Positions 58,778 through 63,630 of a stretch of DNA of 64,000 nucleotides are shown here, piece after piece (the stretch's first letter is position 1; every line of letters begins with the position of its first letter). The notes under the pieces are model-generated. The model worked only from the letters and a program-made list of their open reading frames with translations. It did no database searches and was not told the DNA's origin. The stretch is taken from NCBI GenBank assembly GCA_009691245.1, contig SHUM01000008.1, positions 1-64,000 on the forward strand. Direction: 5' to 3'. The translations under genes were made by a program, and so were the position numbers. This stretch comes from Acidobacteriota bacterium (GTDB lineage Bacteria > Acidobacteriota > Terriglobia > 2-12-FULL-54-10).

Positions 58778-59638
58778 ATGCACCGCTCACTTTCAACCTA
58801 TCTGTTCCGGCACAATTTGCTGGGTGCACGCTTGCTCGATGAAATAGTCAGTGCTGGATTTCAGAAAATTGAAATCTACGGCGACCGCGGACACTTCGAT
58901 TACACCAATCCCAGTCAACTCCGCGAGATCGGGCAGTGGACCGCCAATTCAGTCGGCAAGTTGCATGCTTTGCATGCGCCTGTATCTCGCGATCCGCGCG
59001 GCGCGTCTCCGCACTCTATGGTTTCCATCGCGTTTCTTGACCGTCAGCGCCGGCAGGACTCCATGGACGAAATCAAGCGAGCATTGGAAACGGCGGAGCT
59101 GGCACCCTTTCGCTATTTGATTGTCCACCTTGGTGTAGAGGGCGAGGAGTTCGATCTGCGGAAGTTTGATGCCGCGCTCACCAGCCTGGAGCACCTCTGT
59201 TTGTTCGCCCGGCAGCGCGGTGTCGAGATTCTGCTCGAAAACATCGCCAATGAAATATCCACTCCACGAAGGCTGATTCAGTTCTTCACGCATACACACC
59301 TGCGAAACATAAAAGTGTGCCTCGACACGGGCCACGCCCATCTCGATGGGAGCGTTACGGAGGCCATCGAAGTGCTTGGCAAAGCCATCGCATCCGCGCA
59401 TCTAAGCGATAACAACGGGATGATCGACGATCATCAGTTTCCTCCGCTGGGTGTGATCTCCTGGAGCCCGGTTCTGCGCGCTTTGGCGCAGGCGGCACCT
59501 GAAGCGGTTTGGACCATCGAGGCGCGCTCGCTGGCCTCGGCAGTCGCCCCGCTCGATCAGGCTCGTGCTTCCTGCGACCAGCTGGAGCGTATATTTGAGG
59601 AGAGCCATAAGGAAGCAGACCAAGGAGATCAGCAATGA
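58778..59638 (+). CDS. Sugar phosphate isomerase/epimerase-like TIM-barrel protein
   Basis: Xylose-isomerase-like/AP-endonuclease-2 barrel. Conserved metal-binding segments: [12 protein letters not shown] (His), [11 protein letters not shown] (Glu), [12 protein letters not shown] (Asp/His), [24 protein letters not shown] (His-Asp). Length 286 aa. Substrate unknown. Its stop overlaps asnS by 4 bases (ATGA), so the two are co-translated, though no functional link is evident. Confidence 0.88.
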
Positions 59639-61296: not shown

Positions 61297-62112
61297 TTAA
61301 AACATCTCCGGGAAGTGGAACGATAGCACGGCGTTCAGCCGTTTGTCGCTGGCGATGATGGTTTTGTTCTTCACGTCAAGAGCGATGCCGCGCGGCATGC
61401 GGAACACGCCATGTGGTCCACCCACGGTCCAGCGCGGCGGAACATCGCCTTCATCGTTCACGCTCCAGATTCCGAGGAATGCTTCGTCGGAGGCCAGCGC
61501 GCCGGGGCCGCGCACGGTGGCCAGTATCCAACCCTTCGGGGCGTAAACGGCGATGGGTCCGCCGAGCCGGCTAAACATGCTGTTCTTGCCGCCAATGATG
61601 CGCAGCGGCTTGGCATTGCCAGCGGCCTTGCGGTCAAAGATGCGGAATCGCAGGCCATCCTTATCCCCGATTCCAGCGGCGATCATCAAATTATGCACGT
61701 TGTCGATGGCAATGGCTTCGGCGCCGAGGGTGGTGTCCGGCCCCTCAATCGCGCGCAGCGGAGCTACATCGCCATTCGCGCTGGCGCGATAGACCGTGAT
61801 GCGCTTAACCGTATCCATGGGCACGAAAAACTCATCGTTGACAATGTCCAGCGCGAGGCGGTCCGGCTCGACTAGTTGCGTCCGGGGTCCCTGAATAACG
61901 CGGATGGGAGCTTCCTCCGCATTGGACCCGCCGCGGAACGTCAGCAGTGCCTGAGCGAATGGCTGCGGCACGGTAAATTCGTCGCGCCGATCGTTGTAAA
62001 CGATGGAGTGCATGGTGCGGCCAAGCAGGGTCTTCTGGCCTTCGAGCTTGCGAGTCGCTTTTGTGTTCATGTTCGCCAACCTGGGGAACGTCGCAATCTG
62101 CGGATGCGCCAC
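61297..62112 (-). CDS. C-terminal half of a beta-propeller protein, downstream of an in-frame TGA
   Basis: Same reading frame as the larger upstream gene (62113-63630), separated only by the TGA at 62113-62115. It begins VAHPQIATF, which completes the propeller blade left open upstream, and continues with blades such as EFTVPQPFAQALLTFRGG and EFFVPMDTVKRITVYRASANGDVAPLRAIEG, ending FHFPEMF. Separate translation could use GTG 62112 (directly after the stop) or ATG 62070, but neither has a good ribosome site. Probably one gene with a premature or recoded stop. No signal peptide of its own. Confidence 0.65.
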   Translation of the reverse strand: MAHPQIATFPRLANMNTKATRKLEGQKTLLGRTMHSIVYNDRRDEFTVPQPFAQALLTFRGGSNAEEAPIRVIQGPRTQLVEPDRLALDIVNDEFFVPMDTVKRITVYRASANGDVAPLRAIEGPDTTLGAEAIAIDNVHNLMIAAGIGDKDGLRFRIFDRKAAGNAKPLRIIGGKNSMFSRLGGPIAVYAPKGWILATVRGPGALASDEAFLGIWSVNDEGDVPPRWTVGGPHGVFRMPRGIALDVKNKTIIASDKRLNAVLSFHFPEMF

Positions 62113-63630
62113 TCAGTTGGGAACCAGAATCTCTTCGCGTTTGGTGTCGTAGGCGACAGGATGCGGATTGCCGATGCCCAGCGACGGCTCATCCATCGGG
62201 CCGCTGCGGATCATGCGCAGCGGCGCGGTGTCCCCCGCCGCGCCGATGGGATACACGGTCGCCGCGTGGTTGCCGAAGTTGGCGACCCACAGTTCGTTGT
62301 TCTTTTGATCCAGCCACAGCCCTGTGGGATTCTTGATCATCGTCTTCGGGCCGGTCAGCACGCGCTTCGGCGCGACATCGCCCGAGTCGGTATTATTGAA
62401 AACCAGGATCGAGTTGCCCATGTCGTTGGCGACATAGATCTCGCCCTTGGCGTCATCGGAGGCCAATCCCGTGGGCCAGTTCATCTGCGTCTTCGGTCCC
62501 TGGATCACGCGCAACGGCGGGGTGTCGCCGCTGGCCTTCAGTGGATAGATGGTGATCGATGGCGGAAGGGATTTTCCTGATCCCGCGGCCTGCGCGCCCA
62601 CCGGCCAGTTCTTCTTCGCCGCCGCCGCATCGGTGGCCAGCCCGCCGATATAGGTAACCGACGCCGCACCGCCCACTTCCTTCTGGTGGAAGCTGCCGTG
62701 ATTGCTGACAAACATCAAGTTGTTCTTTACGTCAATGGCCAGTCCGTGCGGATCGGCGAGTTGCGTTTTGTCACCCTGCAGCAGCCGAATGGGCGACTCT
62801 TCGCCAGTCGCGTATTTCTTGAAGACGGTTACGGTGTTGTCATGCTGCGTGCTCAGGTACATCTCTTCGGCGGCTTCGTCCACCGCGACGCCGAAGGTTC
62901 CGTGTGGTGTGCGCAACTCGCGGTCCGCCGGGACGTTGCCCTTGGCCTGGCGCGAGAAGATGACCAGCGTGTCCACTGTATCGTTGTTGACCGCGTAGAT
63001 GTCGCCATTCTTCGGGTCGATATACAACCCGCACTGAAACTCGATCTTGGTTTTTTCGCCGGAGAGGATGCGCTTCGGCTCCGTCATCTTCGCATTCGGC
63101 GGTGTGTTGGCGAGCCGGTCGTAGACGAGGATCTGGAAGAGGTTCTCATCGGTCATCACCACTTCGTTGTTGACGGGGTCCACGGCCACGGCGCTGTAGG
63201 CGGCGTAAGGGTCTTTGATCATGCGCACGGGTTTCAAGTCGCCGCGATTGATCGCCTGGCGCGCGGTAACCGCTGCACTGCGCGCTTCCTGTCGCTGCTG
63301 CAACATGGCCACGAGCGTGTCTTCACTGCTGGCCGGTTGCCACTCGCACATCGGCGCCCCGTTTTCAGCGAGAGGGGCCGCTAGGGTATCGGGGAGCGGA
63401 GTCGCCTTTACCAGCCGCGCCTGCCCGCTTGGCGCATGTCCCGCCATCAGCGATGAATGCGCCAGTTGACCGGACTCGGACGGGCCGGTCCAAAGTATTG
63501 CAATTGCCAGGACTGCGATTCCCCCAGCGAGTGGAAGAATCTTTCTGAGTCGGCTGTTGGTTCCTTTATAGCTCATACGGGATGACCCCCATGAAAATAA
63601 CGAAGTAAGAAACGCATCTCTGAAAGCCAT
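62113..63630 (-). CDS. Membrane-anchored NHL-like beta-propeller protein, ends at in-frame TGA
   Basis: ATG 63630 is preceded by GGGAGAAAGC. One hydrophobic anchor (ILPLAGGIAVLAIAILW, about residues 31-47 from this start), then repeated blades with the pattern RxLxGxKTxxxxPxGLAxDxxNxEIYVANxxxxSILVF, each roughly 50 residues (AVDPVNNEVVMTDENLFQILVY; YIDPKNGDIYAVNNDTVDTLVIF; LASDDAKGEIYVANDMGNSILVF; LWLDQKNNELWVANFGNHAATVY). The final blade stops at EEILVPN, mid-strand, and resumes after the TGA. Extracytoplasmic protein of unknown role. Confidence 0.75.
   Translation of the reverse strand: MAFRDAFLTSLFSWGSSRMSYKGTNSRLRKILPLAGGIAVLAIAILWTGPSESGQLAHSSLMAGHAPSGQARLVKATPLPDTLAAPLAENGAPMCEWQPASSEDTLVAMLQQRQEARSAAVTARQAINRGDLKPVRMIKDPYAAYSAVAVDPVNNEVVMTDENLFQILVYDRLANTPPNAKMTEPKRILSGEKTKIEFQCGLYIDPKNGDIYAVNNDTVDTLVIFSRQAKGNVPADRELRTPHGTFGVAVDEAAEEMYLSTQHDNTVTVFKKYATGEESPIRLLQGDKTQLADPHGLAIDVKNNLMFVSNHGSFHQKEVGGAASVTYIGGLATDAAAAKKNWPVGAQAAGSGKSLPPSITIYPLKASGDTPPLRVIQGPKTQMNWPTGLASDDAKGEIYVANDMGNSILVFNNTDSGDVAPKRVLTGPKTMIKNPTGLWLDQKNNELWVANFGNHAATVYPIGAAGDTAPLRMIRSGPMDEPSLGIGNPHPVAYDTKREEILVPN

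Follow-up and report, generated by a model that had tools for sequence, protein, structure and literature searches.

An in-frame TGA in an acidobacterial tandem NHL propeller gene and its many paralogues is very probably a selenocysteine codon

What does a single in-frame stop codon mean in a gene that is otherwise open from end to end? The question is raised by a locus close to one end of the window (the whole stretch of DNA analysed here, 64,000 nucleotides of contig SHUM01000008.1 from an Acidobacteriota bacterium). The original prediction had placed two genes on its minus strand, 62113-63630 and 61297-62112, in one frame with only a TGA between them, and our re-check of the frame confirmed this: 61297-63630 is open, its sole interruption is the TGA at 62113-62115, and the blade text reported for the junction, EILVPN-stop-VAHPQIATF, is exact. 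A nonsense mutation or sequencing error had been regarded as the simpler reading of this stop, with selenocysteine (Sec) as an option. The features concerned are as follows.

61297-63630, minus strand: whole read-through gene, 777 residues including the putative Sec506, ending in a TAA stop; family members align over the full length
63645, minus strand: ATG, alternative start of the read-through gene
62113-62115, minus strand: in-frame TGA, read as putative selenocysteine, residue 506; TGA in 97 of 99 copies, Cys in 2 of 99

The read-through protein matches Pfam NHL; the part downstream of the TGA, searched by itself, gave no Pfam match at E up to 0.001. Comparing the window with its 95% relative (L001) on a gapped codon alignment, we counted 114 synonymous and 21 nonsynonymous codon differences upstream of the TGA (501 codons) and 89 synonymous and 17 nonsynonymous differences downstream of it (270 codons); in nine other orthologous pairs, synonymous differences likewise outnumber nonsynonymous ones both before and after the TGA. 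In these ten orthologous pairs, purifying selection acts to a similar degree up to the TGA and beyond it, and the synonymous excess past the TGA indicates that the downstream half is selected as a protein in that frame.

The interruption belongs to a large paralogous family and extends well beyond one interrupted gene. A 17-member profile matched 21 loci in the genome from which the window comes (G000), every match containing a TGA, and although these paralogues share only 36-75% pairwise identity (median 48%), U falls in the same column in all 21. The 123 frame hits obtained from loci L001-L135 and the window were reduced to 102 distinct rows by removal of 21 identical or overlapping hits, and three rows that stop short of the column (L010, the upstream piece of L090 and the distant L035) were left out. 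The codons of the remaining 99 distinct copies, which the original prediction had named as the place to look for the residue at this position, are 97 TGA, one TGT (L096) and one TGC (L097), within the motif VPN-U-VAHPQIAxFARLA. The two Cys copies, the only Cys homologues known, form one branch nested inside the Sec copies. One TGA was present in 35 of the 36 matches listed for a class-wide draw, the exception with none being the known Cys copy of G060, and a phylum-wide draw provided nine further copies in five genomes (L139-L143, L147-L149) with the TGA at the same column; L144 and L145 are distant or partial matches in which the column is not shown. Separately, a contig-edge copy in G000 (L090:931-941, minus strand, contig C18) has an extra in-frame TAG, which may mean that this copy is decaying or that its sequence is wrong.

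If the case stood alone, the default explanation would be that a single codon of an ordinary gene had recently mutated to a stop, or had been misread in sequencing or assembly. We found no support for it here: the same TGA recurs in 21 of 21 diverged copies within the genome and in 97 of 99 overall, from separately assembled genomes, which goes far past what chance would produce, and purifying selection is similar downstream of it. The probability of this explanation is negligible, and the recurrence in diverged paralogues refutes the earlier view that it is the simpler reading.

Where the TGA lies in the protein was addressed by AlphaFold2 (AF2) modeling, together with VIA-align fold searches and Pfam, which suggest the following layout.

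62206-63213, minus strand: first six-bladed NHL propeller, about residues 140-475 (AF2, VIA-align, Pfam NHL)
61300-62217, minus strand: second six-bladed propeller, residues 472-777, holding Sec506 (AF2 of the domain, fold search)
63493-63537, minus strand: N-terminal helix, residues 32-46 (AF2 secondary structure and hydrophobic sequence), a probable export signal or membrane anchor

Read from the secondary structure, the AF2 strands make up twelve blades, i.e., two six-bladed propellers, with a pLDDT of 81.6 for the whole protein and 89.7 for the Sec domain folded alone. The search with the whole model placed NHL domains at the top (TRIM3 with Z 28.9 over 250 residues) but gave poor whole-chain alignments (TM about 0.3) because two domains are present, and the second propeller was therefore folded alone; its search returned TRIM3 at Z 28.0 over 260 residues. 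In domain numbering, where the TGA is residue 35, strands 22-24, 29-34, 40-45 and 56-59 form one four-stranded blade. The strands on either side of the TGA thus belong to one blade in the model, and the TGA therefore lies inside a single blade, as the original prediction had proposed, with Sec506 following the second strand, in the loop to the third.

Recoding of a TGA as selenocysteine in bacteria would call for a downstream stem-loop, and a candidate is present.

62071-62089, minus strand: SECIS-like stem-loop with a GGU loop at 62079-62081, a closing A-U pair and, in the window copy, one C.C mismatch

Its position, and the start of the GGU loop 32 bases past the TGA, had been given correctly in the original prediction. 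The stem had also been called weak, which holds for the window copy (C.C mismatch, −6.0 kcal/mol) but not across the family, where it is strong and co-varying. With the T of the TGA numbered 0, the stem joins bases 27-33 to bases 37-43 and encloses a GGN loop. Each of the six core pairs (27-43 to 32-38) is standard in 77 to 80 of the 80 distinct Sec sequences, and base 34, the second loop base, is G in all 80. The mean number of core pairs is 5.9 of 6; when synonymous codons are redrawn at the frequencies seen in the family itself, it drops to 4.75 (at most 5.05 in 1000 draws), and the folding energy over 21 nt goes from −10.1 to −4.2 kcal/mol. The loop is formed by an Arg codon, and this codon is AGG in 91 of 94 cases; in the rest of the genes, AGG accounts for 6.1% of 4442 Arg codons. 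The column of the loop codon has the largest codon bias of 617 columns (3.72 bits; next 1.32, median 0.21), and those ranking next, +7, +13 and +10, lie in the same region. Among 35 diverse sequences, 95.5% of cells pair, with changes on both sides in four of seven pairs; none of 500 shuffles and no slid register reach either the pairing or the both-side changes, although kinship can exceed shuffles and the comparison is to be taken as support, not as a probability.

According to the Figure 2 legend of a 2026 inventory, a bacterial SECIS has a loop of 3-9 nt with G in the first two positions, a stem of 4-16 bp, a distance of 16-37 nt from the UGA and an energy of at most −7.5 kcal/mol (PMC13188914). 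As given in that legend, all four limits accommodate 93 of the 97 copies; the energy limit alone is missed by the window copy, its ortholog L001 (also −6.0 kcal/mol) and one L034 copy (−6.9), while L124 departs only from the loop rule. In the Cys copies the stem is broken (−2.4 and −4.1 kcal/mol), with two of the six core pairs gone in each, as would be expected if the SECIS decays once Sec has been replaced by Cys. At E up to 0.1, an RNA model of the stem-loop matched the 21 family codons of the genome and nothing else; since these copies supply 21 of the 35 rows on which it was trained, only the absence of other matches is informative, and this among 150 scored of 2944 candidates. The model did not recover the SelD hairpin (see below).

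The codon following the TGA (62110-62112 in the window) is GTG in 90 of the 97 TGA copies, and the codon preceding it is AAC in 89 of 97. This context bias may help decoding. It also brings in another possibility, that translation stops at the TGA and restarts at the adjoining GTG, the two halves then assembling into one propeller, since a start codon is usually available there. However, a Shine-Dalgarno match of at least four bases in the 17 nt upstream occurs in none of the 97 copies (shuffled mean 4.8), and the other seven copies have GTC, GTT or GTA instead of GTG. Further, the break would fall within one blade, both Cys copies are continuous, and the downstream SECIS would be without a role. 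Stop and restart is therefore highly improbable.

The genome contains the machinery that selenocysteine insertion requires: selA (551.8 bits), selB (360.6), tRNA-Sec (73.2) and selD (358.2) all score above their cut-offs. With selA, selB and selC all present, as the original prediction had suggested looking for, the machinery supports its selenocysteine option alongside the homologues and the hairpin. In SelD of the same genome (L136:1501-2439, contig C9), too, the frame contains a TGA, and the stem downstream of it closes on the same A-GGU-U loop; SelD being an established selenoprotein family, this serves as a control. No formate dehydrogenase alpha subunit scored above the cut-off in G000, and its partial matches contain no stop. 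Among the 12 genomes with strong family matches, selA was matched in all 12 (one partially, G036, 153 bits), selB above the cut-off in 10 and tRNA-Sec with at least 58 bits in 10; the two carriers lacking selB and the two lacking tRNA-Sec at these thresholds may reflect incomplete genomes or strict filters. The family is found in none of the seven genomes without any selA match, yet co-occurrence with selA across genomes is by itself no evidence, because selA is matched in 54 of 61 genomes.

The machinery also bears on a third alternative, insertion of a residue other than Sec at the TGA through a tRNA-Cys with a UCA anticodon (Cys, selC*), a suppressor (Trp) or near-cognate read-through. Cys is indeed the replacing residue in both non-TGA copies, and other bacteria are known to have such a selC* tRNA-Cys (PMC7609411). 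In the same source, the discriminator base is U73 in selC* tRNA-Cys and G73 in tRNA-Sec. By contrast with U73, the strong tRNA match of G000, with anticodon TCA, has a G before CCA and is called tRNA-Sec by both ARAGORN and Rfam. Moreover, selA, selD and the Sec-type selD TGA are present, and a neighbouring gene (58778-59638) stops at TGA. We give insertion of another residue a slim chance.

Taken together, the TGA at 62113-62115 is almost certainly a selenocysteine codon, judging by the codons, stem-loop and tRNA encoded in these genomes. It is also very likely that the fuller explanation holds, i.e., read-through at Sec506 in a tandem NHL propeller selenoprotein family absent from the inventories compared. 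Computation gives good support to translation in a single frame, to the position of Sec, to the SECIS and to both machinery and fold, and strong support to selenocysteine recoding in an apparently undescribed family, judged against the literature compared. With the stem-loop at 62071-62089 as its guide, SelB would use Sec-tRNA-Sec to insert Sec506, and 61297-63630 would then yield one protein of 777 residues, which may be exported.

What such a protein might do is suggested by its conserved residues.

63346-63348, minus strand: Cys95 on a flexible N-terminal arm, conserved in 75 of the 86 rows spanning the column (8 others have gaps); pLDDT below 50
63031-63033, minus strand: Cys200 in the first propeller, conserved in 82 of 95 rows
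62746-62748, minus strand: His295, conserved in 95 of 97 rows
62008-62010, minus strand: invariant His541 (99 of 99 rows), ahead of the first strand of the blade beside Sec506

In addition, His509 is conserved in 88 of 99 rows, and 54 of the 77 long Sec rows have exactly two cysteines besides Sec. Propeller topology suggests that Sec506 and His541 could face each other and that Cys95 could reach Sec506. Sec506, at the mouth of the second propeller near His541, may form an active site in the cell envelope, either redox or metal-dependent, with Cys95 as a possible resolving thiol.

The family is patchily distributed. Strong matches occur in 12 of 61 genomes (16 when weak ones are included), in 20 of 399 genomes drawn from the class and in 8 of 396 drawn from the phylum, two of these eight being partial or distant matches in which the column is not shown. 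Nearly all carriers are metagenome bins, and the named relatives are acidobacterial bins, apart from one record labelled Deltaproteobacteria; this family copy (L005, VBKX01000270.1) represents either a transfer or a mislabelled bin.

Among the 170 nearest-neighbour slots around the 99 copies, labelled from one representative per group, 26 hold outer-membrane receptor-type genes, 15 another family copy, 11 amidohydrolase-like genes and 4 molybdenum oxidoreductases. G000 (3.4 Mb) has about 65 OMP_b-brl_4 outer-membrane receptors, and 6 of its 21 family copies adjoin one where chance would give about 1 (binomial 2e-4, assuming 3000 genes and with no other gene family as control), which hints at uptake partners. 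At L127:140-6449, a molybdenum oxidoreductase and cytochrome c pair flanks the family gene on both sides, all on one strand, possibly as an electron-transfer unit. Because several paralogues adjoin outer-membrane receptors, amidohydrolases or a molybdenum oxidoreductase, they may differ in substrate.

On the basis of conservation, topology and neighbours, we consider an envelope enzyme with Sec in its active site an even call, and paralogue-specific substrates a more doubtful one. Equally tentative is the broadest proposal, an undescribed class of envelope selenoenzymes with tandem NHL propellers, near-obligatory Sec at the mouth of the second one and 21 paralogues in one genome, each suited to its own substrate, which a partner outer-membrane receptor would deliver. 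If it were true, these acidobacteria would need selenium for catabolism, and surveys that seek Cys/Sec pairs would have overlooked the class. If the selenocysteine reading is right, the family would be a new selenoprotein family of unusually large copy number, with a fold unlisted in the compared sections of the 2026 inventory, and would provide a concrete reason for keeping the Sec machinery in G000 even though no formate dehydrogenase exceeds the cut-off there. Ordinary annotation would split each copy into two hypothetical proteins. The paralogues, the few copies converted to Cys, whose stem-loops have decayed, and the constraint on the AGG codon would also make SECIS evolution directly testable.

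By fold, the family resembles the NHL propellers of TRIM2/3, the PknD sensor domain and PAL lyase: Pfam NHL is matched by 17 of 17 members, the fold is six-bladed, and the Sec domain scores Z 28.0 with TRIM3, 25.3 with PknD and 25.2 with PAL. It differs from TRIM3, PknD and PAL in its tandem propellers, in the Sec within a blade loop and in sharing only 11-17% identity with them. PAL, compared by fold only, aligns over 265 residues no better than the non-enzyme NHL domains do, and a shared fold alone tells no function. Likeness to YncE/6-phosphogluconolactonase propellers, in which we know of no Sec, consists of partial matches of low score (Pfam Lactonase for 16 of the 17 members; NCBIfam YncE at 24.8 bits, far under its cut-off of 400 bits), and no NCBIfam model came near its cut-off for the propeller protein. 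PF05694, which we take to be the Pfam model of selenium-binding protein 1/methanethiol oxidase (SBP56), was not among the nine Pfam families matched by the 17 members at E up to 0.01; methanethiol oxidase structures were likewise missing among the 50 matches listed per fold search, which excludes nothing. To our knowledge, SBP56 proteins have no genetically encoded Sec. They are, like the present family, propellers linked with selenium (cf. PMC10277263).

Among selenoproteins, the 2026 inventory counts 119 prokaryotic families, and section 7, parts 1 and 2, holds no propeller or NHL entry, nor do the words "propeller", "NHL" or "Acidobacteri" occur in its main text (PMC13188914). The literature searched yielded no bacterial propeller selenoprotein, a 2026 groundwater survey of novel candidates lying outside its scope. 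The deep-Sep method may, as its authors state, miss selenoproteins without Cys homologues (PMC12013277). Tools that need such homologues could be blind to a family in which 97 copies have Sec and 2 have Cys. With bacterial selenoproteins such as SelD and formate dehydrogenase, the family shares the in-frame UGA, the downstream stem-loop with a loop G, the presence of selA, selB, selC and selD in the genome, and the existence of Cys homologues. It differs from the listed selenoproteins in that Sec copies far outnumber Cys copies and in having 21 paralogues in one genome. Counting SelD with the 21 family copies, the genome has at least 22 putative selenoprotein genes, a large set that nonetheless falls short of the at least 46 reported for one genome (PMC12013277); what stands out is 21 copies of one family.
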